Shown: positions 28,051 to 62,208 of the stretch, one piece after another
How the letters are laid out: each line of letters opens with the position of its first letter
How positions within the stretch are numbered: the stretch's first letter is position 1
Source of the DNA: Chytriomyces cf. hyalinus JEL632
Taxonomy: Eukaryota; Chytridiomycota; Chytridiomycetes; Chytridiales; Chytriomycetaceae
Length of the DNA stretch: 64,000 nucleotides
Assembly (NCBI GenBank): GCA_025435555.1
Contig: JAIWWG010000044.1
Span: 214,935-278,934, forward strand
Reading direction: 5' to 3'
Notes under the pieces: generated by a model
Database searches by the model: none
What the model was told of the DNA's origin: nothing
What the model saw: only the letters and a program-made list of their open reading frames with translations
Position numbers and translations under genes: made by a program

Positions 28051-28127
28051 GTACAGAAAAAGGGATTTCTATATCCGCGCACGCATAATAAACAGCAAAA
28101 GTGCAGTGGGAAGACAGAATCGAAAGC

Positions 28128-29186: not shown

Positions 29187-29216
29187 AGCTTCATTATCTC
29201 AGCATGTTCTTGAAAT

Positions 29217-38127: not shown

Positions 38128-38610
38128 ATTTTTGTTGACCAGATTCAACTCACCAGATTTATCTCATATATTTACTTTAATTATTTGCCATTGATAGGTT
38201 CTCATCATTGCAAAGTATGGCACTTCTTGGTCTGAAGTCAAGTTGCTTAAAGCCGATCAAGTTATGTTGCTTGCTCAGCATATGCTGACGATGTCATGTT
38301 GCAATTTTTTCATAGAGCAAAAAGCAATAGATATTTGAATCTGGTCAGGGTTTCTATCTGCAGATGAGGTGACCAGTTAATCTGCGTAATCACAGTCCAT
38401 GTGTATGGAGGGGTGACAAGAAGTTTAACATGCAACGCAGAGGAAGAAGCCAAAATAATGGATTCAGATACAATCAATTCAGAGACAATGAATTTAGAGA
38501 CAATGAATACTGAAACAATGCTGGGACAATTGATACAAAAAGCAATAGAAAGGAGAACAGGATTTTGAGTCACTCTTGTCCCAGTTTGATAACTTTGTTC
38601 AACTCTTCGA

Positions 38611-39675: not shown

Positions 39676-40099
39676 TTGATTGCTGGTGCATTTGTGAATT
39701 CTGATTCTTCACCATGTTCTGTTTAGTCTGGAAGAATACAAATAAATTCATTTGCTTGTTCCAATCCTACTTGTTCTTCTCAAAGAATGATTTGTTCTTT
39801 TATTGGAATTTTAAGAATAGGATTTGTTGTTCTGGAAGGTTTAGATGACTTGATTTGATACTTAAAGAAGGGAAAGACTGAGTTGCTTGAAAGGCCTCCT
39901 ACAAAAGAAATCCAAGTCTGACCAACGTCCGACAACCAAAGAAATCCATAGCGTACCCAAGATTACGACAATGACAACAATACATGCTACTCACAATGTA
40001 GCCTACCATCAGAATTCCACCAGTTCTGCCTTTAGTTCTCAGTTTTCTTCAGTCTCACCAACTTCTTCAGTAGTCTCAATTTTACCTTCAACCGTGCCG

Positions 40100-42365: not shown

Positions 42366-44149
42366 CATTTTTAGGTTAAAGATTTGGTACTTTAACTTAT
42401 TTGAGTCAAAATTACCAAACACCCTGGGTTACCGGGTGAATAAACCTCCAAAAAAAAAAAAAAAACCTTAGTTCTAGCCCTAATTTAGGGTAATTGAAAA
42501 CAAGGAGTTGTTTCAGTGGGCCCGATCGAAATGCATGGGCGGCTCTGCAGGTGAAGCGAGGCGCTGTTGAAGAAGTGGGCGCAGCTGGAACCGAGTCGGC
42601 TGATAACGGGAGCGGCTGCTGATGGAGCGGGGGAGGCCGATGGAAATGCGGGGGCGGCCGGTGCTGATGAAGCGGCTGCGGATTGAGCATGGAGCCGTCA
42701 GTGCTGCGACGAAGAATATGCAGTTGCCGTTGATAATAATGCACGGCAAAGCGCCAACAATGGTCTGGAGGAAGAGAAGCAAAGGAAGGGTGATTATCAT
42801 CAGGGAGCGGAATCAGATTAAAAGATGCTACCACTGACAAACAGCTGCTGGGACTGAATGGATGAATATCATGTTTGGCGGCTGGCTGAGCCCAACAAAT
42901 AAGGACGCAACAACAGGCACACTGAAGAGCGCGGCAGGGACCATTCAAGGTAGTAAGTCATGAGGTCAAACATGGGAGCAAAACCAGCGACTCTCTTGAC
43001 AAGTATCTCATAATGGGCCAGTTACCGCAACAGCAAACAGTGTGCGCAGATTGTGGGTCTTCATTGGTTTTGCTTATTTCTTTTGCTCACAAATGCGTTC
43101 CACAAGCCCCAACATGCCCTCGTTGGAAATCACCGAGCAGATATTGACCGTGAGAGCAAACTGCTTGCTCACTAAATTGCGCGACGGCCTGAATGCACAG
43201 CATTCCTTCCACAGAGTCTTGCTAAATGGAATGAAAGGAGTGGACTTGGAAGAAGATGACAAGGAAGCACCTTCAAAACCAAATCCAGAAAGAGGAAGAG
43301 AACCAGACAAGACGGCTGCTCTGGGAAAGAGGTATTGGTTGTTTGAATGTTTGGATATATTTCTGGGTGACAATACATATAATTCAAAGGTTGTCCAGTG
43401 GCAGAAGCAGATGCTGAAGAATTGGACGATGCAGAGACAGTCAACACAGATATGAATGACAATAAAGGTGAAACAATGGACCAAGAAATGGTCAAAAAAC
43501 ATGTTGAGAATACAAAAGCAAAAATGGCGGATACCCATTGCGGTATATAGCCAGAAACATGTTTTTTGAAACTCAGCAAGCATGACATTTCTATTCCAGT
43601 TGAGCAGATCGTATTTTATTTTATCGAATGTACAACCTCTAACCTCATTTTGTTGACCACCAGATCTCTGAAGGCTCAATCATCTCCTTTTTTGCCGGCC
43701 GTATTCATCACGAGGTTGATGTGGACCCAGAATTCCTTGAAAGCAAGAACCGGTTTAAAGAGCGGATTGTGGAGGTGTTTGGATCGTATGACAGCATCTA
43801 TAAAAACTTGAAAAAGAAGGACAAAAAGATGAAAGCAGTCTGCAATAATCTTAAGAAGAGGGACATGAAGAAGGCCAGAAAGGGAAACGAAGCAGCCGCA
43901 GTTGGAAAAAAATACAAAGTGATTGTACCTTTGAAGGTTTCAGACCGCTTGCGTAAAGTCAAGGAAGTGTCAGGCAGATCGGTGATGATAGCGTTGTCCA
44001 TATCATAGAGCTGGATTCGGCATTGCGCAGGACTGACCAGACTGAGTTGCTGAAGCTGCTCTTGTACTTGCTGCAGAGGTTCGAACTGCTGCAACCAGCT
44101 CCTCTCTACTTGCTGGCACTTCAGCACCACATTTGCTTGAACCATCTTC

Positions 44150-44290
44150 GTCCAAAGCATCGGAATCCGATCGGTATATGAAACGCGCAACAACGACTAC
44201 ACCATCAAAACTCAAGCACCATTTTAGCGTCGGATTCTCTGCCGGAGTATTGTGCAGATTCCACAACCTCTTCCCTTCAATAGCAGCAGC
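44150..44290 (-). repeat. inverted duplicate A (partner 46620-46730)
   Basis: The minus strand has GAATCCGACGCTAAAA, then AGTTTTGATG, then GATTCCGATGCTTTGGACGA. The plus strand at 46624-46715 has the same series with few changes. A third, weaker copy of the following segment (AGTCCGCC..., TTGATTCATCC...CAAGTTC) is at 45676-45740. Confidence 0.7.
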
Positions 44291-44621
44291 AGCGGCCACA
44301 GAAGAAGCGCCGGCGCAGTCGTTTGAAAAGAAAATCTTGCTGAACAACTGGCTCCACTAATCTTCGAGCTCCAGGTGAACGAAAGGCAGTATTGTGAGGA
44401 ATACACGGCGATTGAAAGCTCGGATTTGAAATGAATCAGCCACTTTTTCTGTGAGGAGGTCTTCGAAATATTCGCGTATTTCAGGTCCAGAAGCGAGGAT
44501 CCAGCGCTGAATGGCGGCGCCGGTGGCAGTTTGGGCACATCAAAATGCCCGGCAAATCTGAATCGAAGCAGCGCAGCTCGCAAAGCTCCATTCCGAAAAA
44601 AGTTGAAGGTTTCTTCCCACA

Positions 44622-44679
44622 TCCATCCATCCATCCATCCATCCATCCATCCATCCATCCATCCATCCATCCATCCATG
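44622..44679. repeat. (CATC)n microsatellite
   Basis: About 14 CATC units. On the other strand it reads as MDGW repeats in three overlapping frames; this is not a gene. Confidence 0.95.
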
Positions 44680-46619
44680 TAAGAACAGTGTAAACTTGCT
44701 TAAAATTCTTTTTGGGGATGTGGAGCTGCGACGGAAACCAAAAGTTGAGAGATGCCATCGTTACTGAAATGTATCGCTCATGCGTGTACCCGGTTGAAAA
44801 TATCGCTAGAATCCTGCTGGGACTCCCCCCGTCAGATATTCCAGGATTTCGATCGCAGCGATGTGATCGCGATGATTCAGAGCCGCATTTGACTGTTGGG
44901 TTTGTTTGATGAGTTATTGGGCAGTGCGCGAGAAAAAAAAAAGCGCGACTGAACTGGATCCTGAATTTCGCTTTTTGTTTGCTGTCATTGGGAAATAAAA
45001 TTGTCGAGCCTTTTTGGCCACAAGGTTACGCTTGAGATCCGATTTAGACGGCTCTCCGATTCATCCGTCTGTAAGGACGGTTTTGGGTTGGAAGAATGGG
45101 CAGTCCATTTACTCAGCTTCTTGGCACTGCAGGTTGGATTATTGGTCGCAGTCATTCAGTTGGGTCCGTGAAGTTTCAGGTCTCCTCGATGTGGCTTCTT
45201 GCTGGTTGGGGTGGGTCTCTCGAAAGTCCTCTAAACGGCTTTTGCTTCGGCGTGACATCGTCTGCTTAGTTTGAATATTTTGCGATGGGGCTGCTGCGCT
45301 TCGGGATTCAGAGGGGCCTGTGCGGTTGCTTCCATAGGTGATTCGGTGGCTGCTGACGGATCTCAATCGTCCGACTCGAGCAGTGATTGAAACCAGTGAT
45401 AGCTTGGATCGTTTGTCCGTAGTGTCTGGTGTGTCGATGAATCAAGTTCCTTCGAAGGAGGTCGAGGCTTCGCTTTCGAAATTGCGCTGGTCTTTTTTGT
45501 TTGTTTTTGCGCCAACAAATTTATTCATCCACGACACACACGCGCAGTTTTGTAAAGAAAAGACCGTGTTGCGTGGCGATGAAAAGAGTTGTCATACTGA
45601 GGTTATTGCAAAACTGCGTGTGTTATGTTCTTGCATTTGTCCGAAAGAAAAATCATTCCAAAAAAAGTCATCCAAGTCCGCCGACAACGACTGACGCTGC
45701 AGCCTCCTTCGAACAAGCTTGATTCATCCACAAGTTCAAAACAAACGATCCAAAGCACCCGAGCCCGTTCGATGACTGTTCAACTCCAACGCTGAAGATC
45801 CGAATCACCCACTGAAGCTCCTCTCGAACTAGCAGTCCAAAGCCCCTCGAATTCCAGCTGCCCATCACAGAATAGATTCAAACCAAGCGGCTGACGGCCC
45901 GCCCAAACAAAACGGCTTGCTGGACTCCCGAAAGGCCAACCCAGCCTGTGGAAAACCGCACACGTGTTGCTGCACCGAAGCACTCGGAAACTCAAGCTGC
46001 GACCGCAATTCCAAGAGCAACGCACTTCTTTAGCTCATGGAATTCGTATCCTGTCTTCGGTGAGAGTGTTTGTATGATATTTAAGGCGGACAGCTAATTA
46101 TTGTTTCCTAGAGGAACTGGCTGCAATTGGTTGCACGCTTCATGTCCTGGCTGCAATTCTTTTCGCCATGTGACTCCCGTGAAATAATGATGTCGGCGGC
46201 CGCAGGTGCCAAACGAATTGGAGCGGATGTTTGTGACGACAAACGAAGAAGCGCGTAAAGGCCAAGGAATTCAGCATCGAAATGAAGATTCAAGAATACA
46301 GCTTTGCTGAAGGAGTCTGGCGATATCGCACGGGCGATCGAGTACAGCAGCGGCGATAAAATCTGTGGGACAAACAACCTATTTCACCGAAAGCCTCGCA
46401 TATCTCCGGAAGACCTCGCTGCAGAAAAAATCGCTGACTTACAAAAATCTCAAGTTCCCAACCGCCTTGTCTTTCTTTGCAGTGTCGCCTCACATTTCTC
46501 CTGAAGTTCGAAGATTAGTGGAGCCCATTATTGAGCAAGACTTGCTTCTCAAAGAACTGGTGCCGCTGCCATTGGAGGGGTTGCAAAAAAGTGTGGAACT
46601 GATCCACCATATGCTTTGA

Positions 46620-46730
46620 AAGAGAATCCGACGCTAAAAGACTGCGCAAGTTTTGATGAGCTTAACGCTGTTTCGTTTTCGAAAATATCCACCCGATTCC
46701 GACGCTTTGGACGAACATGTCCAAGTCCGC
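46620..46730 (+). repeat. inverted duplicate A, second copy
   Basis: Partner of 44150-44290 on the opposite strand, 2.3 kb away. The flanking frames also correspond (KTSLQKKSL here, KTSSQKKW there), so the duplicated unit is several hundred bp long and strongly diverged. Confidence 0.65.
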
Positions 46731-47342
46731 CAACACAATTCCGAACGCAGCGACGCATCCTCTGCCGAAGAACACTTGATTCATCCGCAAGTTCACAAGA
46801 CACCGCAGAGAAACCATCCAGCCACACCGCCCTTACAAACGCCGCCGAATTCCGAAGCTCAACCGCCTCAGACAAACGATTTAAATGAAGCAGATGATGC
46901 GCCTGCTGGGACTACGGAGAGACCAAATGGAACCAGCTAAAACTGCTTTTACTGACCGCAAATTGCTCGTATGTATGACCTTGACCAATGCCGTGCAAAT
47001 TCGAATCCAGCAGTAGTGCCAAAATGCCGACTAAAAGGATTCCCCATTCCGGATCATTGCCTTCTTCGCATAATCATCAATCGCCGTTGCCGTCCACACC
47101 AGATCCCAAGAGCAACTTGCGGCCAAATGTACTCGAAATATAACATCCCAAAATATATATTCCCAAATGCTGCAGCACACGAAAAAGTGGGAAACCTGGG
47201 AAGACGTCATGAAAATTTCACATATAAAAAATGGGGAGATGTTGGGATGCGGTTAAGCAACTTCTCCACAATCTCCAAGAAAGAAGAAAAACCATAGGAA
47301 TATTCCCATTGTGAAATGGACAAGGGCGATCTAACCCAGGAG

Positions 47343-47440
47343 CATGCAAACGCCCGAATGTTGTAATGGCACGGGAGTCCTTCGGTTTCTTGGTACCACT
47401 AACTGCTCAGCGTGGATGCCAACAGGTGTTGGTAAAAGTC
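47343..47440. repeat. two short blocks homologous to the 7.6-8.3 kb GIY-YIG locus
   Basis: 47343-47400 matches 7630-7686, and 47404-47436 matches 8222-8254 (GCTCAGCGTGGATGCCAA then AGGTGT.GGTAAAA). The order is the same, but the 535 bp between the blocks at the 8 kb locus is missing here. It is read as an internally deleted second copy of that locus. Confidence 0.75.
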
Positions 47441-48296
47441 GTTGTTGTTCCCATGCAAGATAAATTTCCCGAAATACGAGCATCGGACTGAAACCATGCT
47501 CCACCGGTCACGGTGAGCGCATTCGAATCAGAGCTGGGTATTGTGAGGCTAGAGCATACACCCGCTCCGTCAACCTTGAGGACATCGTGCACGTACAAGG
47601 ACTTGCCAAAGAACCTCCTCCAGCAATAATTAGGGCACCTGTACCAACTCCGCCGGAGGTGTCGTTGATACCGTCGAGGGTCAATGACTGTGTGCTCGTA
47701 CTATATGTAAATGTTCGATTCGATGTCAACTTGGATTGTCCCGTACGTGGATCTGTGCCTCCAAACAGGACATTTTCGGCCTCAAAGGTAGTTACTCCAG
47801 TACCACCGTATGCACTTGTTATTGGTGTGGCGTTCCAAATGCCGGCCGTGATACAACCCAGCACCGTCACTTGAGGCTGTGAGGGGCTAACACTGTTGAT
47901 GTTTGCTGCAAAGTCACGAGTCGGTCCAGTTCCTGCAACCACACCACCATTATTGGCTGAAAAGAATAACAGGTGGACTGCATCCTGTGGATTTATTGGC
48001 GCCCCAACATTCGAGAGTCGAGAATTCTTCATATCAATACCTCCCTCCGCCGATATGACACCCTCAGACCAGACACCACCAATCACACCAATACCACCAT
48101 CGACCATCAGTGCACCCGTACTACCACTCACTGCCGGTGTCTTATTGGTTAAATGGACGAGAAGCCCGTTGGCAGCAGTCAATACAGGTTCATTATCAAT
48201 AAACACATTTCCAAATTCCTTCACAACGTTTCGAGACTGTGTCATGTTGTTGACAAGGGCCGTAAAAAAATCACAACAGCGACAAAATCTCAACAC
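47407..48296 (-). pseudogene. virus-type repetitive fibre-like protein, frameshifted
   Basis: The minus frame from about 48250 to 47590 encodes Gly/Thr/Ser-rich beta repeats: STGALMVDGGIGVIGG, VGTGALIIAGGGSLA and ITAGIWNATPITSAYGGTG. Such motifs are characteristic of virion fibre/surface proteins of large DNA viruses of the NCLDV group and of phage tail fibres, not of fungal genes. The last repeat units (SNALTVTGGAWFQ) continue in a different frame (47598-47407), so there is a frameshift near 47590. No start codon is evident. It is read as a remnant of endogenised viral DNA. Confidence 0.7.
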
Positions 48297-48625
48297 TTCA
48301 ATTTCACGGCGTTAGAAATAGCATTTCGGACCCCAGCCCAAGCAACCCGACACCTGCAAAACCCTTCGAAATAAAACGCAATTTTGTCATTATTTCCTCT
48401 GCAGACCGAGATAGGACTCGATTCCCCGACTCTGCTTCATTTGATATCAAGTTGCCCAACATGTACCGCGACATGGTCAGCATGGCTTTGTATGGAGGGA
48501 CAATTCCGAATTGAACTCACATTGGAAGTGACGCGTACTTACTGTTGGACATGGGAAGCGATGTAAGTCATCTGCGAAGCTCATCAGGGCACGATTGGTT
48601 CGCCATTCTTGGAATCATGCGACAC

Positions 48626-48841
48626 CCAAATGCCAGTTACCTGAACCTGGACAAGTCCAACGTTGACGATTTGCCTATTCAGTTCCGACCACCACGGGAT
48701 AAATTGGATAAAGTGTCCATTTCGTTGAAACATCCACAGGTGGTTTATTTTGGGTCCGAACCCCCAACTGGACCGGCCAACCCACTCCACCAAGTCACGT
48801 ACATATTTGAAATCAGAACAAGAATCCCACTTCGAAAATAA
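48626..48841 (+). pseudogene. fragment of protein B (virus-associated?), C-terminal part
   Basis: Reads PNASYLNLDKSNVDDLPIQF ... IFEIRTRIPLR and stops at 48841. It is a duplicate of 58289-58530 on the minus strand; that copy has two extra residues (HPDGSQVYFG versus HPQVVYFG). Homology begins abruptly at CCAAATGCCAGTTACC, so this copy lost its 5' part. Beta-rich composition would suit a capsid-type protein, but this is a guess. Confidence 0.5.
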
Positions 48842-48965
48842 ATTAAAAGTCGAGTGCCACTGTGGAATCCGAATTTGGGCGGGACGAAGTCGAACGGTCT
48901 CGCAAGCTTGACTGCATTGCGGACTTTGTCAGCAACGCATGGATGAAGGAGAACTTTTGAGATGA
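48842..48965 (-). pseudogene. C-terminal remnant of protein A
   Basis: The minus frame ends NSDSTVALDF stop, matching the end DSDSTVTLDF of the gene at 57.85-58.29 kb. Upstream residues (KFSFIHALLTKSAM) do not align with that gene. Converges with the protein B fragment, exactly as at 58.29 kb. Confidence 0.45.
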
Positions 48966-49132
48966 AAAAAAAATGAAAGGGATGTGTCCGATTCTTATTC
49001 ACATGTGTCCGATCAAGTAAACATGTACAAGAAAAAAGAGTTGAATCAGAAGGAAAGATGGAAACAAGAAATACAGCCAGCAGAGGAAGGACATAATGAC
49101 TGACGAGTGGGCCCTCAAGTTCGCTCCAACAG

Positions 49133-50545
49133 TCAATGTGGTCGCAAGCGTTCAAAACACAACATGACGTGATAAGGATATACAAAATCTTCAGCAAAAG
49201 TTGGCTTCTTCCCGTAGCATTTGAAATGGCGGTATGGTTTTTCCGCATGGCGCACTGTCTTGATGATTTCATTGTCAATGTGACGCAGCTTATATAGCTT
49301 TGCAGAGTTCTTGAGAACGGTTGGGATATCGTATTGTCCCAGGTAACTTTCGTGTTCCGTAATTCCAACAAAAACATAGGAGCCTTCATGTTGAATTTGA
49401 CCTGCAGACATCAAAAAGTCACAAATAAGCTTTGAAACACCACCGTTTCCTCTCCATGGACAGTTGAAGAGAATATCAGCACGCTTCTCGATGACCCAGT
49501 CCTTTACATAGCCGTAGCAGTGTAATTTTGTTGCATCCACACAGAGGTTCATATACTTTCCAAGCGAAGGACGATAGCCAACATCGACCTTAGGATATAT
49601 AACGTCGGGATGATTCTTTTCAGCCAGATCAGTCAGAAAGACGTCTTTCCACCCCATTAGCCACTTTTCAGCAAGGGCACTTTCGAAAGTCCCATAGCCA
49701 CACCCAACCGACAGAAATGGACCATTTTTGGTAACCAATTTTTCGAACACAAAGTCGGTACACAATTCAGGGCACCAAGCACGCCCATAGTTTTGCTTGT
49801 GAGATGCAGCGAGACACTTGAGAACCTTTGTGCCTGGAACTGTGAATCCCCATTCCATCCAAGACCACCAATTTGGAAAAATAAGCATCTGGTTGTTCAC
49901 GTTGAATCTACGCATCTGGTTCAACAACTGCGTCTGTGCATTGAGGGGACTTGGACACGAATTCAAAACTACGTGATAAATTTCGTCCATAACCTCAAGG
50001 TCCCTTTTCATGGAGGCGCATTGATCTTTGAAGTTACAACAAATTGCCTTCATCAGCTGCAGTGATTCCCATGATGGAGGCGAGTTGAGATGATAACTAA
50101 CTCTGCAGTCATTTTCATTCGGGATCTTGACTTGGCATCTATTTTGCCGAATTTCTTTTTCGAGTAATCCGCGGCCGTCTCGGAACTCAAGTTCCCATCG
50201 TGCGTTCGCCTGGTCGGAGCAGTTTGGGATGCACCCCTTCGTCTTGTCAAGACAAAAACAGCTTTCGTCTTTTGCCCATTTGTACTTCAAGTCCACTACT
50301 TTGAAAAGTAGCTCCCATTGACGGTTCCAAAAATCTGCGCGAGTGGCTTTGAGATTTTGCAGTTGCTGCTCCAAACGTTGGCAATCTGTGTCGACTTTGG
50401 GCTGTGAAGAGATGCTTGCATGGAATTGGCCGTGGTCATCCATCACTTTCATTTTGCTATCTGGAACGCATACAAGATCATCTCGGAGTGGCTGGTTGTG
50501 GGGCAGGGTGGCAGGCAAGGGTTTGATTGGCACAGTCACGAACAT
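49133..50545 (-). CDS. Rossmann-fold SAM-dependent methyltransferase-like protein
   Basis: Single open frame from ATG 50545 (470 residues; a second ATG 31 codons in, MKVMDD, is an alternative start). The N-terminal half is Cys/Lys-rich and helical. The C-terminal half has a class I methyltransferase core: GPFLSVGCGYGTFESALA (motif I), DVFLTDLA (acidic loop) and ADILFNCPWRG at the motif IV position, recalling the (D/N)PP(Y/W) of amino-methyltransferases. Substrate unknown. It is the only long undamaged frame among the virus-like genes, which may mean recent acquisition or selection. No introns are needed, unlike the host genes. Confidence 0.6.
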   Translation of the reverse strand: MFVTVPIKPLPATLPHNQPLRDDLVCVPDSKMKVMDDHGQFHASISSQPKVDTDCQRLEQQLQNLKATRADFWNRQWELLFKVVDLKYKWAKDESCFCLDKTKGCIPNCSDQANARWELEFRDGRGLLEKEIRQNRCQVKIPNENDCRVSYHLNSPPSWESLQLMKAICCNFKDQCASMKRDLEVMDEIYHVVLNSCPSPLNAQTQLLNQMRRFNVNNQMLIFPNWWSWMEWGFTVPGTKVLKCLAASHKQNYGRAWCPELCTDFVFEKLVTKNGPFLSVGCGYGTFESALAEKWLMGWKDVFLTDLAEKNHPDVIYPKVDVGYRPSLGKYMNLCVDATKLHCYGYVKDWVIEKRADILFNCPWRGNGGVSKLICDFLMSAGQIQHEGSYVFVGITEHESYLGQYDIPTVLKNSAKLYKLRHIDNEIIKTVRHAEKPYRHFKCYGKKPTFAEDFVYPYHVMLCFERLRPH

Positions 50546-50624
50546 CCAGGGTCTCGAAACTAAGAGCAAGATCCATCACAGGATCGGTGGGCACTGTCGA
50601 TAAAGATGACTCGTTCGTCAGTGG

Positions 50625-50672
50625 TGGTGTTTGTGTGTGCGTGTGTGTGTGTGCGCGCATGCGTATGTATGT
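50625..50672. repeat. (GT)n-rich microsatellite
   Basis: GTGTTTGTGTGTGCGTGTGTGTGTGTGCGCGC, a simple repeat just upstream of the methyltransferase-like gene. Confidence 0.9.
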
Positions 50673-51446
50673 TTCACAAACCGGAATGCGCCGATGTCAT
50701 GATCTGCTGTTGCTCCCTTCTCGGACCGATCCAACTGGAACAATGCTTTTCGGGTGGCATGCACTGGATGGATGCACAGACTCAGTTGAATAAACTTTTC
50801 CAATTGACAAATGCTTTCACAATTTGATACCACACCCACCGCAAATAAAATGGTCCACTAATAAAATGAGTTCAGGATTGATTCAGTCCGTTCTTTTCGG
50901 GAATAAATACCCCCAATTGGTTTTTGTATATTTGGCAAATTTCAAGGCTGTGAATGTGTGCTGACATTTGACCAATCGCATAATCTCTGAGGCATGTTGG
51001 CACATCTGTTTCGTCATCGTGTTCATTGCCAGACATGAATGGGTACCACAATTTATCTGTTGCTGATTGAAAGGAACTGCATTTATAGGGTTCGAAATCC
51101 TTAGTACAATCGTTTTCTTGACTTTCTTGACTTTCTTGACTTTCTTGAGTTGCGTGTGAACTTGGTTAACCGTTTCTGTTGGGTGGACAAAGCAGAAACC
51201 AGGCCAGCAAGAATAAACGGGTCGAGATGTGATTGCTGTTTTCTTTGACACTCCTCAAGCTTGCGATGCAAATTTGAAGTTTCACGTGAGTCGCAAACTC
51301 GGAGCAAACCTGGTGGTGTGTAACATTGGTCGTGGCTGTTTTGGAGAAGTCTGTGGCGAGGCCACGTTTATCGCATAAGACCTTTGTATCGGGGACTGTT
51401 TGTATTCAGTCTGTGTCGAAGCCGCGTTAGTAGCATAAAACCTGTG

Positions 51447-51735
51447 TTACTGGGGCTGCTTAACATTTACCTGCTGCTTGGGCTGCTGGTGCTGCGTGGA
51501 CTCCTTCAAAACAGTGATTTGACGCTTCAAGCTTTCGATTTCAGATTGCAATACTCTATTTCCGGCGACAACTTCTCCTCCGGATGGAGTGCTTGTGGTC
51601 GATATTCTGTTGAAGCAGAAGATTTTTTGTTCGCAATTTGAAAGCAGTTCGCAATAAAAGGTCCGGCCACAACAGCACGGAAAGAGTCGGCTGCATACCT
51701 CAACCTGATGACAAGTCAAACACACGTACCTTTGT
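51447..51735 (-). pseudogene. RING-like zinc-finger fragment with coiled coil
   Basis: The minus frame shows CVCLTCHQVEVCSRLFPCCC, then C-x-x-LL-x-x-C and KIFCFNR. It looks like a Cys-rich RING-type fold, followed by a helix with heptads (LQSEIESLKRQITVLKE). No ATG opens this frame; in-frame stops lie upstream. RING proteins of this size are common in large DNA viruses and also in fungi. Direct 10 bp repeats (TTGACTTTCT) lie at about 51118-51150, downstream. Confidence 0.35.
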
Positions 51736-52358
51736 CCATGTACGCACTGTTTGCGCTTTCGAATGCCTTATGTTTCATGGTTCTTTCTCTCATTGCTGCT
51801 GCACCCATTGATCGCAGTGGATACAGCTTGAATCAGCGTGTCAGTTTCTGGAGGATGGCTGGATACGTGTTCATGAAAATTGATATATTTTAAAGCCAAC
51901 TCGATTTTGGGAACGCGGTGGACGTATCGATTGGGAGTTGGTGTGATGCTTCCTGCTGTGTTGTTGATTCCAGCGAGATTTGGTCTTGATTGGAAGGAGT
52001 ATGCGCAGAGTTTGATCGGCGACGGTTCGCCCAATAATTCAACAACTGTGGCTGAAACGGCTGCTCTCATTCTCTCTGGTTCAAACACAACCGAAGCTAC
52101 ACAAACCACAAGAGATCTCATCACAGTACTTTTTCGGCGCTCTTTATCGGCAATATCTTCGAAAAATGCAGTTCATCGCAGTTCATCGCGGATACTCTGC
52201 GCCAATCACCGCCCTCGTATTTTGCACAACTGTGATGGGTTTCGGGGACTCGTGGACTTTATCAGATTCGGGACATTCTGCTGTCGCTGTGGATGTCCTT
52301 GTTCAGTTTGATACTGTTGAAGAACATGCAACACAAGAAATGCGCCATCGACACACAC

Positions 52359-52740
52359 TTAGGTGGCTTCCTGGAAGCAAACAACTCGTTGCCCCACGTT
52401 TTTCTTGTTGCCAGTAAGTTCCACCTCCATTTCGTATGAAGTGGATGGTCTGGTGTTTCCAAAGGGTGGCGACCGTAAAATCAAAGCGAACGTGTGTTCC
52501 AACAAAGGAGAATCGGTCTTTGTGACGGATGTATTCTGTTTTCATCCCTAGTTTCGTAACTCCGTCCAGATGTGTTTCTCGGTTCAAGGCAGCGCGACAT
52601 CCGAATTCCCAAAAGTCAAACGTTTTCAGTTTGCGCTGAATCATCACGCTGCCTCCTCCAGTGTGAGCGTCTAGGAGAATTTCTGTCTTGTGAACTCCAT
52701 TACCGTCATGATATTTTGTTGCCAGAAGCCCCTGTTCCTT
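52359..52740 (-). pseudogene. Cet1/tunnel-type mRNA 5'-triphosphatase fragment, frameshifted
   Basis: The minus frame from 52740 includes GVHKTEILLDAHTG, MKTEYIRHKDRFSF and VRFDFTVATLW. The family motif EVEL appears as YEMEVELTGN in another frame about 30 bp later, so there is a frameshift near 52455. These motifs define metal-dependent RNA triphosphatases (first step of mRNA capping) of fungi and NCLDV. The fragment lacks the N-terminal ELE strand and the C-terminus. It could be a viral capping-enzyme remnant or a damaged copy of the host gene. Confidence 0.5.
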
Positions 52741-52806
52741 TTTTTAGTTTTTTTTTGACGTTTTTCCGGTGAAAAACTTGTGTTGCCGAAAGGAAAAAAA
52801 AATCAA

Positions 52807-53283
52807 ATGAAACCAACAGCCTGCGTTCGGACCTGGTCCTTCGTACTAGACCCTGACATTCCATCAGACTACGAGACAACGCGAGATTTTATTGAACGTG
52901 TTCTCTTGGACAAGCAAAGAGGATGGGGTCGACTGGGAACGCTTCAGTTTGAGTATCATCCACAGTATCGATCGACAGACATTCTCATTCGCATGTCGCG
53001 GAACAAAACCATACGCGAAGAATGCAAGTTTTCAGGACTTTCGTGTGCTAAACTGGGAGAAGGTATCATGCTGCTCAATTTCGAGAACTGGACCGAATGT
53101 CCTTCGTAGTGGAAAGACCTCAACACGTACATAGCTTACATGGTGAATCATGAAGTTGGACATCTACTTGGCCACCATTCTCACCTCAAGCTTGGCCATT
53201 CCGACTCGCTGTATCCCGTCATGTTTGCTCAAACCAAACCAGTCGATCAGCCAAAGTTATTTAATGCATTCCCATCATATTGA
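52807..53283 (+). pseudogene. HExxH zinc metallopeptidase (DUF3152-like) with in-frame stop
   Basis: From ATG 52807 the frame reads RTWSFVLDPDIPSDYETTRD and RGWGRLG, which resembles the DUF3152 family of predicted peptidases. It meets TAG at 53107-53109 and then continues in frame with VNHEVGHLLGHHSH (HExxHxxGH zinc site) and YPVMFAQTK, a Met-turn-like segment, to TGA 53281. The zinc site therefore lies after the stop and would not be made without read-through. DUF3152 is mostly bacterial, so presence here suggests transfer, perhaps by a virus. Confidence 0.6.
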
Positions 53284-53730
53284 GTTGGTAGGAAAGAGTA
53301 GCTTTATTTCGTCCGAATATCCTCCAATAAATACCCGTCTCGCTCTCGCTTACTCCGATGAATCTTAATTATCAATTCGCTTAGTCCGAAAAATAAAAAT
53401 AGATTTCTTCCTCAAAACCACCCATGCGCCTCCTTACTAAACGGTGCCACTCGATCGGGTAATCCAACACATCAGACCGGGAGATTTGGACGGTATCAAG
53501 TCCAATGACAAAGATGTCTGGCGGGAGTCGCTCAGAAATGGAACGGCTCTATGTACCCGAAAGCTCATGCTCAACTATACGTGGAGATAGTGAAGGTGGT
53601 TGCCTGTACAAAAATCAGCTACGCAATTCGGTGGAAGCCCATCATAATCTGCAGATGATTCAATTCCATTGAGCTCATTCGAAACGGCGGGATCAATGCG
53701 TAAAAAGATGCATGAGATGTACAAACATAG
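53284..53730. other. no supported gene
   Basis: Short frames only. The 53575-53837 minus frame overlaps the protease remnant and is a shadow. Confidence 0.4.
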
Positions 53731-54222
53731 TTGCCCGGATCCTGTTGGATAGACAAACATCCGTCCTTGCAGGAAAACCTAAGGCGCGTCAATCCAAAAG
53801 TGCACAAGAGTGTTACTAAAGAGGCTTTCAAGCCCAAAGGTACCCAGGGGCAGTACGAGTCGCTGTCTACCGATCATATTGATAACGTCTTGTCTCAGTA
53901 TGAAGCGGCCCATCCTGCTACGTTCTCATACATTGGATGCTTTCCATCAGATCACCATCATTTGCATCCTGACGCGTTACCAACAGATCTTCCCACTCGT
54001 TATCAAGGGATCGTCTTCAATCTAGATGAAAGTCATGTCATTGGGCTTGTTGAACATCCCAAGTCTGATCATGTGACCATTCAATATTTCGATTCAACAG
54101 GACGTGGTCCCAACGCCAATATCCGCGACGTCATTGCCGCGCTCACCAAAATGCATCGTTCCTCAGGCAAAAAGGTGAAAATCGAAATTAGCGAACAGAA
54201 TCATCGAAAGGGTGACACGGAG
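53731..54222 (+). pseudogene. adenain/Ulp1-type viral maturation protease, ends at catalytic Cys
   Basis: A plus-strand frame (no ATG at its 5' end) encodes LSTDHIDNVLSQYEAAHP, then GIVFNLDESHVIGLVEH (catalytic His in the SHW-type motif, with Trp replaced by Val), then IQYFDSTGRGP (catalytic Asp), then NHRKGDTE followed by TGA (54223). In adenovirus, virophage, polinton and NCLDV proteases this last region reads HQ..(S/T)ECG, with the oxyanion Gln and nucleophile Cys. Here Gln is Arg and the Cys codon position is the stop. The family matures capsid proteins. This copy cannot be active. Confidence 0.65.
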
Positions 54223-54480
54223 TGAGCAACGTGAAAGAAATAAACAAGTCGAAAATAAAAGACAAGTTCATGAACGAGTACAGAAAAAGTCTCTTCCGAA
54301 GCCACTGAAGCCACTAGATCTTTGACACGACAAACTCCCCACTGTACAAGCTGGGATGCACCTTTTGCATGAAGGCATGTGGCCGAACTGAATTCGTGTC
54401 TGAATTGAAGTCGGTTTCGGATTCCTCGCGTATCAAAATCACCGTATGACTTCTATGCCAATGCGCGACATACAATCACG

Positions 54481-55005
54481 GTGGATTGGGCATTTCACGG
54501 ATTGGTTATGACCGCATGTGTATGTGTACACGAGGATATACTTCAGTTTTTCCTGCGTCAGTATCGGCACGTCTTCAATGATGTCGTTGTTGAGGACATC
54601 TATAGACTTCAAGACGCTGTTTCATGTGACGCACTGTTTGCCGCCGGGTTTCCTCCTTCCGACTCAAGCCTCATTCAACTGGTTCATTCGAATACGGCGA
54701 TATGGAACCGATACATCAATCCGGATCGGTTGATCAAAAACATAGCTCTCGTTACCATCCATGATAACTACGTCAATAAGGTACATGACTGTACGACCTG
54801 GACACAATCTTCATGGACTGTCTGTGCGAGTCGCGTCTTGCGGGGATAGAGTTCTTCATCATCCATCTGGACTACGAGCTGCCACCCTTCCACCTCATCG
54901 AAGACATCCTTCGATTGTGTACGCAGGATGTGCTGGACTTTCTGGTGTTGCATGTGCCGTCATCCGAGCTGATTGACTTGGTTCATCTGTTGGACTTTCT
55001 CTGAC
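54481..55005 (+). pseudogene. unrecognised protein, probably frameshifted
   Basis: The frame 54481-54849 (DILQFFLRQYRHVFNDVVVE, SNTAIWNRYINPDRL, LVTIHDNYVNK) loses coding character near 54790. A second frame at 54813-55005 continues similarly (ESRLAGIEFFIIHLDYELPP, DVLDFLVLHVPSSELID). Together they suggest one helical protein of about 170 residues with a frameshift, or an unmodelled intron. No family is recognised. Confidence 0.35.
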
Positions 55006-55140
55006 TTTTTTATTTGTTAAATAAATATATAGTTTTTATTTTCATCCACACAAGGGTGAGCACTCGGTGAAAAAAGAAGCAAGCAAAAATGAAATCAGGA
55101 AGTTGTGAGCTGGATAAACATGAACTTGTTTTAGTCGCAA

Positions 55141-56008
55141 TCAGTAGCTGTTCCAGTATGGCATATCAAATGCCTTGCGCGCCAGCGTGGTCTGACCACC
55201 GAAATTCTCGAAGGTGAGGCTGTCACTGGTGTACATGTCCCTGATGCCTGCAACGTCATCTGGTGACAGCACCGTCATCAATGCGTCATCCTCTAACTGC
55301 CCTGCCAGCTGGGAGTTCATAATCGAGTGCGTGCAGTATCTATAACTGTAATTGCGCCAGTAGGTGCTGTCTCTGTTTGCGTCACAGTGCCACAAACCAA
55401 GCACATGCCCCAGCTCGTGAAGCAGAATAGTGGATGCTTTTCCACGTCCCAACCGTTGGAAACGGTCCATGGAAATGGTTATTGTGTTCTTGTATGAATT
55501 ATCCCCTGGCATGAAAGCACTCGCAAATGCATCTGGAACGGAAGGCTGGTGTGACCCGAGACAGTTCAAAACAAAGTGGTGATCGCCTCCGGTTGCCCTC
55601 ATGAAGTTCACACCAGTTGCTGCAGTCCAAAGCCTCGTTGCATCGTACATTGCGGCAGCAAGCAGTACAGGTACGCGGCTTGGGGGCTCACCGCAGCCCA
55701 TGAGGTCCCACGCCCACACGCAATTGTTGGTCCACGTGTAACATTCACTTGGACCGCGACCAGGTACAACTGTTTCCCCTCGTCGTGTCAGACTCTTCGC
55801 TGGCCATCCTTTCGCTGTAACTGCATTCATACTCTGTAGTGCCATCGAAGGGACCGGTATACTCTTCGGAGCCACCAGGGCCATACACGGCGTCGGCGGC
55901 AGCGTCCAACTTGGCCTTATACGCAAGGTATTCTTCCTTTGAAACGAATTCGGGAAGTTGGGCCATAACGAGCGAAAACAGATGTAGGAAAATCCAGAAC
56001 TTGAGCAT
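55141..56008 (-). CDS. secreted metzincin-type zinc metalloprotease
   Basis: ATG 56008 begins a clear signal peptide (LKFWIFLHLFSLVMAQ) and a short propeptide-like region. The catalytic part has LLAAAMYDATRLWTAATGVNF, then HELGHVLGLWHCD (HExxHxxGLxH/D zinc site) and SIMNSQLAG (Met-turn), like matrixin/astacin-type enzymes. It should act outside the cell on protein substrates. The coding frame changes near 55820 between the signal-peptide part and the catalytic part. Either a short intron that I could not place in phase, or a frameshift, lies there. Everything else looks functional. Confidence 0.65.
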
Positions 56009-56779
56009 GGGGGCGACTCGTATCGGAGGGCGGCGGCAGTTTTGCGATGATTTTAGATACTGGTGGCTGTTGACTGTTGAGTGGGAAATGATTTGAGTGA
56101 TCAAATTGTCCTCGGAGTACAGGATTGATTAAATTGCCAAGAACTCGAGCGATAATTGTTGAAACACCAGAATGGTGTTGACAAGCAAGATCGATCCTTT
56201 TTCGGGAATAGAAGACAACAACAACTGCATCTCTAAAAAACCTACCCGTGCCACAGTCCATAGCACCACCACGACCAGGCAACGTAGTGTGCTTCTGCAT
56301 TCTTCAACAGATTAAGACTGAAAACAAGGGTTAATAGGAAAAACAAGGGTTAGTAAAAGTCTGTTGTTGTGATTGATTGATACAGCAGTGGCGGCGAAAC
56401 GCACATGTGCTGATGTTGGGAACGGGCGTAGATGCAGTGCCGGTGACAGGGCAAGTGACCGTGCGAACGGACGGAGAACGCTCATTTTTAGATTTGCGCT
56501 GCTTTTTGACTCACACGTCGATGCGAAAAGGGTCACTAACGAACACTCTCTCAAGACGCTCCCTCTCTCGACACTCCATCAGAAAGCATTAATGCACAAC
56601 TCACGTAATAACAAAAGTCTGCAACTTTATCACAACGGACACAGGAAATAAAAGAACTGCCTCTTCAGCAACAATCTTTGTCACCAACGGTAAAAAGGAA
56701 AACAAAACAAGAAAAACACACCAGAAGTTCAAGAAAATAATATTAATAGGAATTTCAAAAATGTAAAAAAAAGACCCCT
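56009..56779. other. intergenic, no gene seen
   Basis: Short frames without motifs. A/T-rich toward 56.7 kb, next to the 3' end of the glycine dehydrogenase pseudogene. Confidence 0.5.
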
Positions 56780-57094
56780 TCATTCTTCATAGTCTTCAAT
56801 AGGTGGGCAACTGCAAATCAGATTTCGGTCTCCGTACGTGTCATCCACACGTGACACTGTTGGCCAGAACTTTCTCTTTCGCAGAACGGCCATGGGGTAC
56901 GCAGCTTCTTGACGGGTGTACGGTCATTCCCAAGTGTCCTGAGTCAGCACATCGATTGGGTGTGGTGCGCGTTTCAGAACGTTGCCTTCTTTGGGCTGCT
57001 TGCCTTCCTCAATGGCTCGGATTTCGGCGCGGATTTTAAGCATGGCATCGCAGAAACGGTCAAGCTCGGCTTTTCTTTCGGATTCGGTGGGTTC
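56780..57094 (-). pseudogene. glycine dehydrogenase (P-protein) C-terminal fragment
   Basis: The minus strand reads [36 protein letters not shown], then TGA (56924-56926), then [37 protein letters not shown] and a stop at 56780. This is the very conserved C-terminus of the mitochondrial glycine cleavage P-protein. The TGA sits where family members have Arg or a similar residue (W-D/E-R-P-Y), a simple CGA to TGA change. The upstream side is cut at 57095 by a solo LTR; about 80-90 codons that should precede EPTESE are missing. Confidence 0.88.
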
Positions 57095-57095
57095 T

Positions 57096-57555
57096 TGTAG
57101 AAATATAGACGCTGGTACACGACTATATAGCGATCGTCTTAGAAGTTCTTAAAGCTCGTATCGATAGTAACTACTCTTTTAATAGATCAACTAAAGACTC
57201 CACTATTAGCACAATAAACTAAGAAAGAATGTCATAGCATGCAAACCTAAAGATATACGCAGTCGGTAAGAACAATACTGCAACAGAGCACAAAATAGTA
57301 GACGATAAGATTCTGCTCTCAAGGGAGAGACAGATATAAGTAAGAAACACTAAGAACAATGGTCAAACGACCCATTGTGTGAATCAAAAAAAACAGAACA
57401 AAGAGGTAGCTTGTAAAACAACTATCGAATAAAATGATTGGATGAAAAGACAGAGACTGAAAAACATCCAGAAGAAAGATGAGTGATCGTAAAGAAATAA
57501 TTAAGATTGGCAATGTGTAAATAAAGAATTACGCGTCCTACGACTGAATTCAACA
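57096..57555 (-). repeat. solo LTR of copia-A inside the glycine dehydrogenase pseudogene
   Basis: 460 bp, reverse orientation, 5' boundary TGTAGAAATATAG and 3' boundary GAATTCAACA. It is more diverged from the 31.8/36.4 kb LTRs than those are from each other (substitutions plus small indels), so it is older. No target-site duplication is visible (GTTCT versus CACCT), and host coding sequence is lost at the insertion point. Confidence 0.9.
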
Positions 57556-57718
57556 CACCTTTCTCAAGCCGTCGTCTCCCATCATCTTGAGGTATGCCCA
57601 GGAAATGGGCAAAATGCTGGCAGATCCCCATGGAGCAGCGGAAACGGGTCCAATGCCGTCAGGTCCGCTTGTTGGGACAACAGGATGGTTTGGCAGGAAC
57701 TTGGCAAGGTGCGTTTTA
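57556..57718 (-). pseudogene. glycine dehydrogenase (P-protein) internal fragment
   Basis: After a TTTTTTTCAG splice acceptor the minus strand reads [14 protein letters not shown], then [20 protein letters not shown] and [10 protein letters not shown], the pyridoxal-phosphate domain segment of the P-protein. It is immediately followed by the solo LTR. The preserved acceptor shows that this was an intron-containing genomic gene, not a retrocopy. Nothing further upstream remains. Confidence 0.85.
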
Positions 57719-57852
57719 CTGAAAAAAACTGGAACTTCTTGTTCTTCCTTTTTTTTGAATTTTTTTTTTTGGCAAAATTCAAAGCGTATAAAGCCAGCGT
57801 GTGTTCGCGTCCGTCGTCCACAGACACAAGAACCAATAATCAACACACAACC

Positions 57853-58285
57853 ATGGAATCAGTCAGTGCTGCCGTCGCCAAACGTGCCCCAAAATCACCG
57901 CCGCGTCTATTTCACCGATGTCGGTGGAGGTCTCTTTCTGAACATGTCATGGTGGAAACACGTCGGCTTCATTCAGGCGGTGATCGGAAAAAGTGGCAGT
58001 GTCAAAATATCATTGGGGTTCACGCACACGACCCACGTTGTCCATTTCAAAGTGGACAGCGCTGCCGTTGCCACAAGGCTGGTGGCTCGTATCAAGAAGC
58101 TACACAAGAAGCACCTTGATACGGACTTAATTCCAATCCAGACCTCTGAAAAAGTTCCCAGTGTCCCTGGGATTCCAGCCTTCACAGGAGCTGGTCTTAA
58201 GGACTTTGTGAGCGAACCGCAACAACAAGCTCAAGAATCTGATTCAGACAGCGACTCGGATTCCACTGTGACGCTCGACTTTTAG
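57853..58285 (+). pseudogene. protein A, unknown, probably frameshifted
   Basis: ATG 57853 opens [13 protein letters not shown] in one frame. A neighbouring frame then carries VYFTDVGGGLFLNMSWWKHV, VKISLGFTHTTHVVHFKV, ARIKKLHKKHLD and an acidic tail (SDSDSDSDSTVTLDF) to the stop at 58285. A one-base shift near 57895 is needed. TATAAA lies about 65 bp upstream of the ATG. I do not recognise the family. It converges with protein B (4 bp between stops), and the same convergent end pair occurs at 48.84 kb, which ties both to one duplicated unit. Confidence 0.45.
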
Positions 58286-58288
58286 TTT

Positions 58289-58574
58289 TTACATTCGAAG
58301 CGGAATTCTTGTTCTTATTTCAAAAATGTACATGACTTGTTGGAGTGGGTTGACAGGTCCAGTTGGGGGTTTGGACCCAAAATAAACCTGTGATCCATCT
58401 GGATGTTTTAATGAAATGGAGACTCTATCCAGTTTATCGCGTGGCAGTCGGAATTGAATGGGCAAATCGTCAATGTTGGACTTGTCCAGGTTCAGGTAAC
58501 TGGCATTTGGTGTTGGAATCCCCGGCTGTGCTACTGTGGCAGATTTCTTTAGACGTTTCTGGAACAAGTCATTG
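58289..58574 (-). pseudogene. protein B, C-terminal part, cut by copia-B
   Basis: The minus frame FQKRLKKSATVAQPGIP, then PNASYLNLDKSNIDDLP and IFEIRTRIPLRM, ends at 58289. It is a duplicate of 48626-48841. The frame is open up to about 58574, where LTR-like sequence of copia-B seems to begin. Family unknown; short beta strands and the C-terminal position of hydrophobic strands could suit a virion protein. Confidence 0.45.
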
Positions 58575-61500
58575 TTTTACCTTTTTGCTGTGCCACAATG
58601 ATTTCACTTCTACGCGTATAAAAGGAGGCGTTTATTCGATAATAAAAACGACTCTTTCCACACAGATCTCAATACGTTATCAGCACCATTGCTATAATTA
58701 AAAAACCGACATCTTACCATGAGCAAACATGAGACTCTACTCTACAACGGTGAAAACTATCAGGAATGGGAATTTGCCATGCGCCACCATCTTAACGCCA
58801 AGAAACTTGGAAGCACGCTAAAGACGGCCAAACCAGAAGAGTCCAAAGCTAAAAGAATGGTTAGCTATGGACGAGCAAGCCATGGGCAAGATAGTGGAGA
58901 GAGTCCTACCTAAGTTCTATGAGCACCTTAGGGAAGCCACTACTGCAAAAGAAATGATGGCTGCGGTCAAGAATATCACAGCATCAGATGAAACGAACCT
59001 GCTATTCCGAACCCAGACAATGTTCAGAGGTCTAAAAATGAAAGAAGGTGGTGATGTAATCAACCACTTAGCAAAGTTGGAAGAGTACCAACGAGTACTT
59101 GGAACACAACTTGTCAGTGACCCAGACATGATCAACCAGGTCATGAGGAGCTTACCTAAGTCATGGGAGAATGTCCTCCCAGCAATCAGAGCACAGACTA
59201 GCCTGATGACTAGTTACAAGGATTTTAAAGGAAAAATTGTCTCAGAGTACGAGTACATGCGAGCCGAAAGCAAGGAAATTGGATCCAGCAGAGGCATAGC
59301 CATGCAGGCAAAACAGAGCAACACGAAATTTAAAGGTGAATGCAACAATTGCGGCAAGCCAGGGCACAAGAAAGCACAGTGTTGGGCCAAGGGCGGCGAC
59401 AAAGAAGGTCAAGGACCAAGACAGATCAAAAGCAAAGATGATGAGAAGAAAGCTCATCAAGCAAATCAATCAAGAAACTTCGTGCTTACCGCAACAAAGA
59501 TAAAGTCAGGAGATGGTGACTGGATTCTGGACTCCGGAGCCAGTAACCACATGACAGGTGACAAAGAAATTATCAAGGACTTGACAAGCCAGGACAACCT
59601 TGGCAAAGTAACGGCAGCAAGTGGTGACCAGTTCCAGATCAAGGGGATTGGATCGGTTAAATTGAAGGGTGAGAACGGCACAGTGACAATAACCGGAGTT
59701 CTTTACGTACCAGGTTTCTCTGTGAACCTCCTGTCAATCTCAGCACTAAGTATGAAAGGCGCAACTATAAATTTCGACGAAATGGGTGCATCAGTTTCGA
59801 TAAACAACATGATCATCCTACGTGCCAATGATATTCGCGAAGGACTGTACACACTGCCAGAAAACAAAGTTGGATTAACAACAAAGATCATGAGAGAAAC
59901 TACCATGAGGGAAGCTCACCGATTTATGGGGCACTTGAACGCGAGGGACCTAAAGAAACTGCCAGATCAGGTCGACGGCATTATCATCAAGGACGAGGAC
60001 CTCGGAGACTGCAGCGTGTGCATGGAAACAAAAGCTACAAGAAGTGTTGGAAAAGAGAAATCAGCACGAGTGGAAACACCAGGCGAAGAGCTAAATCTGG
60101 ATCTCACCTTTATAAATGGCACACTGGTGCTAATGATTTCAGACACTGGAAGTGGATGCACATTCGCGAAAATATTGAGCAGGAAGAGCGACGCATTTCA
60201 AGGAATTCTCGACATCATCAAGTCAATCGAAACCCAATACAATCATAAAGTGAAAGTGATCGTTTCTGACGGGGGAGGCGAGTTTGTAAACAGTAAATTC
60301 TCGAGATGGTGTGAATCAAATGGCATCAGGCACCACGTCTCCACGCCATACACACCAGAGCAGAACGGAATTGCTGAAAGGAAGAATCGTACTGTAGTAG
60401 AAATGTGCAGAGCATTGTTAGCAGACGCAAAAATGGACAAGGAGAAGTACTGGATATACGCACTGGAGATGGCAGTCTACATCAGGAACCGATGTCCCAC
60501 GAGAGCAACTACCAAAAACAAAACACCGTACGAAGTATTAACGGGAAAAAGACCGAACTTGAAGTACATGCGTCGATTTGGTGAACTATGTGTAGCATAC
60601 ATCGACAGACACAAGCGTGGAAAGCTGGACAACAAGGGTATTCAATGTAGAATTCTGGGAATCAAAGAAAAGGGATACTCACTGTTGGAAGTCGACAGCG
60701 GAAGGATCTTCGAATCAGTTCACGTTAAATTTCCCACGCAGGCGACAGTGGAAGACATTGGAGCGTCAGAAGAGGAACCACCTGAATTACTGTCAGACTC
60801 AGAGGATGAAACAGAAGAACCAAGTAGACCCAGTCCACCCAGAACCGCAGCAACCACAGAGCCAACACGCGAAAGACGGGAAGAATTTCTAACACCAGAA
60901 CCAGAAGAACAAGACCCAGAGGAGGAGGCTGAGACACGAAGCCCATCACCAATCTGTATCTTACAACAATTGTCCCAGACACAATCACAGCCAAGAATGG
61001 CAGTGTCAGAACGAACGATACGAGTGCTAGAACCAAGAAACAAGATTGCTGCAAAAGATATCAATTCATCAGTTGATCAATCAAACATCATTGAAGGAAA
61101 ACTATGATGAAACATTTGCGCCAGTTGTTCGATCTACGACAATCAAAGTGTTGATAAGCGTTTCGTTAGCAAAGAAGTACCGAATCACTCAAATGGACGT
61201 CGTAACAGCTTACCTTAATTCAAAAATGGATTACAACGTGGTGATTCGAATCCCAGATGGTTACGAGCTTTTAGACCCCCAGATCGACCGAAAACGACAC
61301 GCATTAAGACTTTTGAAGGGGTTGTATGGAACCAAACAAGGCGGCTACCTGTGGAACGAGGAATTTAAAGGAACATTAGTTAGTATTGGATTCAAGCAAG
61401 CAGTATCCGACCCTGGACTATTCAGGATCCAACGTAACGGGAGTGAATTGCTAATCACCTTGTATGTGGATGACATCTTGATCGCGACGGACAATGAAGA

Positions 61501-61731
61501 CCTGCGAAAGTGGGTAGAGAACCAGTTAGTGAAGAAATACAAAGTCAAGATGATGGGGGAGATACATACGTTACTCGGATCAGTCATCAAATACGACTTG
61601 AAAGGCGGACGAGCGAGCTTCCAGCAGTCAAATTACTTGGAATCGATTGGACAGCGGTACCAACTGGAACACACGAAGTACACGACACCGTTGGAGGCTG
61701 GAATCAAATTGCCAGATGAAGAAGCAGAATC
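58575..61731 (+). mobile_element. decayed Ty1/copia element (copia-B), truncated by copia-A
   Basis: A presumptive 5' LTR remnant (about 58575-58671; TATAAAAGG at 58617) is followed by the CGTTATCAGCACCA site and gag-pol. Its 3' part, including RNase H and the right LTR, is absent because copia-A starts at 61732. Pol is related to copia-A in order of domains but is a distinct family. Confidence 0.8.
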
Positions 61732-61743
61732 TGTAGAAATATA
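58719..61743 (+). pseudogene. copia-B gag-pol, frameshifted and internally deleted
   Basis: ATG 58719 opens gag; one extra A near 58855 shifts the frame to the main open frame (to 61107). Visible: zinc knuckle CNNCGKPGHKKAQC (about 59340), protease DSGAS (59530), integrase HHCC (H..H, CSVC) and D,D,E residues (LDLTFING, VSDGGGEF, EQNGIAERKNR). Between 61080 and 61100 the first part of RT is deleted, and the frame changes to KENYDETFAPVVRS with YVDDILIA (about 61465). The end at 61731-61743 is in copia-A sequence. At least two lesions and a truncation make it inactive. Confidence 0.9.
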
Positions 61744-62189
61744 GGCACTGGAACACGACTATATAGCGATCTTCGTGAAGTTCTTAAAGCTTGTATCGAT
61801 AGTTACTACTCTTTAATATATCAACTAAGGAATCATACAACTATTAGCGTAAGAAAGAAGAAGTATCATAACTGGCTAACCTAAGGATATACGCAGTCGA
61901 TAAGAACAATACTGCAACAGAGAGCAAATAGTAGAAGATAAAGATCTGTTCTCAAGGGAGAAGCAGATGTCAAATACGAAACACTAAGAACAATGGTCAA
62001 GTGACCCATTGTGTGAATCAAAAAAAACAGAACAAAGAGGTAGCTTGTAAAACAACTATCGAATAAAATGATTGGATGAAAAGACAGAGACTGAAAAACA
62101 TCCAGAAGAAAGATGAGTGATTGTAAAGATATAATTAAGATTGGCAATGTGTAAATAAAGAATTACGCGTCCTATGACTGAATTCAACA
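61732..62189 (-). repeat. LTR of copia-A copy 2 (3' LTR of the antisense element)
   Basis: 458 bp, reverse complement of the 31.8 kb LTR with few differences. It directly follows the broken copia-B coding sequence. Confidence 0.95.
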
Positions 62190-62208
62190 CTCCTCCACAC
62201 ATGTACAA

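Follow-up and report, generated by a model that had tools for sequence, protein, structure and literature searches.

A block at about 42.49-58.51 kb of a 64,000-nucleotide stretch from the chytrid Chytriomyces cf. hyalinus JEL632 (hereafter the window; C182:214935-278934) is likely to be a decayed insert of nucleocytoplasmic large DNA virus (NCLDV) DNA, a reading that we hold with considerable confidence. It is likely because its genes for a tail-fibre-like protein and for a protein related to minor capsid P1 are 95-97% identical to DNA on other contigs of this genome, on which giant-virus genes are found. This genome is a draft of 37.8 Mb in 242 contigs, and C-numbers denote contigs of that assembly. 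The original prediction, made from the sequence alone, had proposed remains of either an endogenised large DNA virus or a polinton-like virus. The former has held up well: near-identical fibre and P1 genes lie on a contig with RPB1 and D5 genes, and the genome also contains a viral family B DNA polymerase (PolB) and a major capsid protein (MCP). The predicted gene mix was confirmed in part, with the fibre-like, DUF3152 and duplicated genes standing, and the capping enzyme and the methyltransferase proving weaker than stated. The features that carry the argument are the following.

47440-48291, minus strand: truncated tail-fibre-like gene, 97% identical in DNA to C51:45356-46208, 96% to C53 and, over 226 bp, 98% to C189
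48285-48291: deletion junction between the fibre and P1 genes; about 1.03 kb present on C51, C189 and C53 is missing in the window
48285-48874, plus strand: minor capsid protein P1 gene, copy 1, without its start, 95% identical to C51:43729-44324
57775-58510, minus strand: minor capsid protein P1 gene, copy 2 (gene end), with adjoining viral DNA, of another viral variant; 95% identical to C84:4643-5391, 90% to C189 and, in part, 82% to C51

The fibre-like repeat protein is recognizable by its match to phrog_30390 (E 4.3e-6), and its gene is broken, as had been claimed for this region: the frame at 47508-48296 (minus strand) encodes 262 aa in the window versus a 1206-aa open frame on C51. What had been described as duplicated genes is one gene present twice in opposite orientation, with copy 1 nearest to C51 and copy 2 nearest to C84. 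Its identity comes from the C51 protein, which matches the minor capsid protein P1 chain 6ncl_a6 in a PDB sequence search (E 2.2e-4). When 5.8 billion proteins were searched, two relatives out of 77 candidates cleared E 0.001, one being from Chytriomyces hyalinus, and an AlphaFold model of P1 (pLDDT 41.5) gave no useful fold match. On C51, the interval of about 1.03 kb between the fibre and P1 genes holds another gene. A TFIIB-like identity for this lost gene had been suggested by eye alone and was dropped, as Pfam and PDB gave nothing. Similarly, a first impression of 6-7 bp of microhomology at the deletion was abandoned once the letters at the join gave about 1 bp shared.

Giant-virus genes elsewhere in the genome

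Besides its fibre and P1 genes, C51 carries RPB1 in two pieces split by one TAG, a GlcNAc transferase, more fibre-type frames and a D5/C962R-type primase-helicase (32740-35895; AEP_C962R 1e-17, D5_N 4.7e-11). Among PDB chains, those of eukaryotic Pol II come closest to this RPB1. On C42 we found the viral PolB in two overlapping frames (36487-40106; PF00136 4.1e-86), a P11 relative and an NCLDV double jelly-roll MCP of 429 aa (51175-52461; PF16903 2.5e-24, PF04451 1.3e-18), the one MCP match in the genome; a further PolB fragment lies on C84. The best PDB chain for the MCP is 8h2i MCPv1 (E 1.3e-33), and 1m4x, 'PBCV-1 virus capsid', is also matched. We take both 8h2i and 6ncl to be PBCV-1 particles. 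C51 and C42 hold viral and host-type genes together, since host-type genes lie toward one end of each: GPCR, N-acetyltransferase and fasciclin genes on C51, AFG1-type and cNMP-binding genes on C42. In a Pfam scan of 33 further frames of these two contigs, 25 of 64 families were listed; those shown are WD40-type, and the scan has no bearing on A32. NACHT/WD40 (NLR-like) frames also occur among or near viral genes, at 27-30.5 kb of C51 (positions 1-1080 and 2619-3458 of that piece) and at 10-13 kb of C84 (positions 3-2963 of that piece), and the MUG113 score of C51:1-987 falls just under the cut-off.

With the C51 primase-helicase as query, 41 D5 matches turned up on 17 of the 242 contigs. Outside C51 these range from 30 to 98% identity, and several contain stops. 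Given that D5 relatives of such widely differing identity are spread over 17 contigs, the sequences suggest that viral DNA probably entered this genome repeatedly, from several related viruses.

To place the PolB, a quick maximum-likelihood tree was built from 71 of the 120 listed rows, after rows shorter than 680 aa had been dropped and without named NCLDV references. The PolB falls in one clade of 27 rows (SH-aLRT 100), apart from Pol delta, in which 22 further rows accompany five from chytrid genomes (JEL632, Blyttiomyces, Rhizophlyctis, Quaeritorhiza and Polychytrium); Rhizophlyctis and Polychytrium sit on long branches. The PolB alignment run against IMG/VR gave two loci, which were not used further.

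Extent and content of the block

A probable viral block lies where one had been predicted, and it starts earlier than proposed. We place it at about 42.49-58.51 kb because copies of its left and interior DNA lie near D5, fibre and P1 matches elsewhere. Mobile elements adjoin both ends, and one lies inside.

39887-42465, plus strand: LINE-type retrotransposon with reverse transcriptase (RVT_1 E 8.5e-15), adjoining the block on its left
42490-47440: virus-linked block with gene pieces; collinear copies, 89-94% identical, on C53, C199 and C87, shorter on C197
57096-57560: single copia-type long terminal repeat (LTR) within the block; LTRs on C210, C204, C176 and C46 are 99% identical to it
58822-61744, plus strand: copia retrotransposon adjoining the right end of the block (copia gag, integrase core, other Pol domains)

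Each of the left-block copies on C53, C199, C87 and C197 has a D5, fibre or P1 match at a distance of 0.5-3.3 kb. Neighbouring rows on each contig were merged by hand into 17 match clusters for the left block (42.4-47.44 kb) and 16 for the interior (48.9-57.1 kb). Two of the 17 left-block clusters have a D5 match no farther than 10 kb away (0.014 by a crude binomial), with C53 and C197 near fibre or P1 in addition, and so do four of the 16 interior clusters (2e-5; the binomial assumes an even spread across the genome). One of these four, on C199, is weaker evidence, being a repeat of about 190 bp that also occurs on C45 and C111. Left-block matches are a lower bound (40 of 47 candidates scored), and their list of 68 rows was reduced by 3 self matches, 21 LINE-tail rows covering only the first ~84 query bases and one 56-bp row on C2; the interior list of 23 rows was reduced by its self match. 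The repeat itself, at 53278-53470, is about 90% identical to two copies on C45 and two on C199, and partly to C111; one C199 copy begins 3 bp from a D5 match. Inside the left block, two related gene pieces (44186-44379 and 46496-46675) lie in opposite orientation, their arms 75-81% complementary.

The LINE ends in poly-A at 42450-42465, and its last ~84 bases recur at 21 or more places. The LTR inside the block is just 89% identical to the LTR at 61732-62194 and 99% identical to LTRs elsewhere; the idea that these two bound a single copia element was therefore rejected. LTR matches are likewise a lower bound, as 39 of 98 candidates were scored. Since this LTR lies inside the block, the viral DNA is probably the older of the two.

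The interior holds the remaining genes.

49136-50575, minus strand: BMT5-like methyltransferase open frame (PF10354 0.023, under the cut-off)
52303-52740, minus strand: possible capping-triphosphatase fragment, frame broken (PF02940 best, E 0.2, under the cut-off)
52807-53280, plus strand: DUF3152 (metzincin-like) peptidase gene, interrupted by a TAG at 53107-53109
53731-54225, plus strand: candidate Ulp1/S273R-like cysteine protease remnant, from a fold search of a low-confidence model
54443-55031, plus strand: gene with copies elsewhere, 81% identical on C122, 80% on C102 and, in two copies, 94% and 90% on C53
55141-55998, minus strand: matrixin-type metallopeptidase (at 55141-55926; PF00413 E 3.2e-6, over the cut-off)

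The predicted DUF3152-like peptidase is well founded: the piece downstream of the TAG alone exceeds the Pfam cut-off (E 1.1e-10), the upstream piece stays under it (0.12), and a genome search gave 8.2e-15 across one TAG, the sole DUF3152 match found in the genome. That stop is a second instance of the broken genes that had been noted. For the methyltransferase, the prediction holds as far as an open frame whose relative in Chytriomyces hyalinus passes the cut-off (PF10354 1.4e-8), although the window frame itself does not. Further methyltransferase loci occur on C48, C197, C183 and, weakly, C223, and the one on C197 is about 0.5 kb from a fibre fragment. Neither the methyltransferase nor the matrixin can at present be called viral.

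The other two predicted enzymes fared less well. As a capping triphosphatase, the fragment at 52303-52740 is suggestive only: PF02940 is indeed its best family, the fragment has no PDB match, and what we take to be an E-x-E-type motif lies downstream in a different frame. For the protease remnant, sequence searches of Pfam and PDB gave nothing convincing, and a second copy looked for in the genome was not found. Its model, built from a single sequence, has low confidence (pLDDT 47), and fold searches with it put giant-virus proteases first: the moumouvirus Ulp1 protease in BFVD (E 7.5e-5) and African swine fever virus (ASFV) pS273R in PDB (E 0.015). The fold search would thus fit a capsid-protease remnant.

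Origin of the proposed insert and competing explanations

The insert could have arisen as follows. The chytrid would have been host to viruses with a chlorovirus-type capsid, and parts of the viral genomes were probably taken up when breaks in its DNA were repaired. Such capture may have been repeated, from several related viruses. The sequence itself shows the DUF3152 stop codon, the shortened fibre gene, the deletion of about 1.03 kb that fused P1 to fibre, a second P1 piece of another viral variant than the first, and LINE and copia/LTR insertions beside and inside the block. We predict that the block is inert DNA rather than a working element.

Several results weigh against a viral origin of the block. 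None of the core NCLDV genes MCP, PolB, D5 and A32 was found in the window, whose most clearly viral genes are those for fibre and P1. The A32 packaging ATPase, which a fragmentary fossil may well lack, was not found in the genome with PF04665 at E 0.1 (3 candidates scored; 4 of 14 controls matched). VLTF3 had no match in the genome, nor in any control genome, a negative that counts neither way. IMG/VR gave no confirmed relative of P1, MCP, matrixin or protease. Relatives of the methyltransferase occur in chytrid genomes, namely those of Chytriomyces hyalinus and Obelidium. Fifteen of the 17 left-block clusters and 12 of the 16 interior clusters have no D5 match within 10 kb. Finally, composition, which had been proposed as a check, fails to set the block apart: third-position GC (GC3) overlaps, at 0.43-0.57 in window frames, 0.46-0.60 in viral frames and 0.47-0.57 in host frames.

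The strongest competing explanation, which we regard as unlikely but worth keeping in view, is that only 42.5-48.9 and 57.8-58.5 kb are viral, and that 48.9-57.1 kb is intervening host or mobile DNA. The chytrid relatives of the methyltransferase favor this, the matrixin could be a secreted host enzyme, and the repeat at about 53278-53470 recurs on C45, C199 and C111. However, four of the 16 interior clusters lie near D5 matches and the C53 copies stand beside fibre and P1, the DUF3152 match is the only one in the genome, and the protease model appears to resemble giant-virus proteases.

Less probable still is that C42 and C51 represent a free virus sequenced along with the culture, and that only fragments such as those in the window are integrated. 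Both contigs are densely coding with long open frames, and unrelated pieces can be joined in draft assemblies. On the other hand, both have host-type genes near one end, a copia element on C42 shares 98% identity with the ones in the window, and RPB1 on C51 is split by its TAG, all of which fits poorly with a free virus. A polinton-like virus or virophage whose ends would be inverted repeats at 48.6-48.8 and 58.3-58.5 kb is very improbable: the arms are about 90% complementary and some 9.5 kb apart with the protease remnant between them, but they are the P1 capsid gene twice, from two variants closest to different contigs (C51 and C84), related copies stand beside NCLDV genes, and the fibre gene lies outside the arms. 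Pfam and PHROGs scans of 10 window frames, in which no profile for polinton-like viruses (PLV) was searched, showed no PLV-type capsid or ATPase. We retain a decayed NCLDV insert as the likely reading.

Kinship with known viruses and the host neighborhood

In its MCP and its P1 and P11 relatives, the JEL632 lineage is like the chloroviruses (PBCV-1, Phycodnaviridae). It is unlike them in its Pol II-like RPB1, its C962R-type primase domain and its fibre clusters, and in that its remains are integrated in a fungus; to our knowledge, chloroviruses have no Pol II-like RPB1. With polinton-like viruses it shares integrated DNA-virus remains with a cysteine-protease remnant, whereas the hallmark genes linked to the block are those of NCLDVs and the inverted repeat consists of a capsid gene present twice.

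Earlier work had already reported NCLDV inserts in early fungi, and JEL632 adds a rich further case. According to a 2017 report, NCLDV genes occur in Gonapodya, Allomyces and Rhizophagus, where viral core genes stand among host genes of early fungi, as they do here (PMC5294986). Compared with those islands, JEL632 differs in that a single genome holds capsid, PolB, RPB1 and primase genes, with D5 relatives on 17 contigs. Fungal hosts were proposed in 2023 for two giant viruses from crustal fluids (PMC9894930), and a 2024 paper states that fungi had not been experimentally verified as NCLDV hosts (PMC11265010). Our search by title and abstract opening, outside of which lay non-PMC preprints and most subscription journals, found no description of giant-virus inserts in Chytriomyces.

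We tentatively suggest that chytrids may host a giant-virus family of their own, as yet unisolated, marked by a capsid of chlorovirus type, a Pol II-like RNA polymerase and PolBs that form a distinct clade. Its members would insert into chromosomes recurrently, which would make JEL632 a layered record of many related infections; this is quite possible, though we stop short of favoring it. With capsid genes, PolB, RPB1, D5 on 17 contigs and a PolB clade shared with four other chytrid genomes, the idea of fungi as giant-virus hosts becomes testable, and the JEL632 data indicate the fungi that a screen should cover and the genes to use in it. Additionally, many copies at differing stages of decay allow the entry and erosion of giant-virus DNA in fungal chromosomes to be studied.

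The remainder of the window contains host-type genes by Pfam, such as chitin synthase (four frames, 23.2-25.6 kb), and a Zn2Cys6 domain lies at 14.6-15.3 kb. No Pfam family matched three long frames in what had been taken for the host block (18916-19824, 20488-22833 and 25400-26413), and the frame at 7959-8609, also without a Pfam match, has by eye a GIY-YIG/T5orf172-like look. This host part (28092-30221) and C42 (15646-17842) have in common a two-gene element that includes a DDE_3 transposase, at 58% and 31% protein identity. C42 also encodes a Fic/DOC-domain protein at 10946-11818 (E 2.9e-13).

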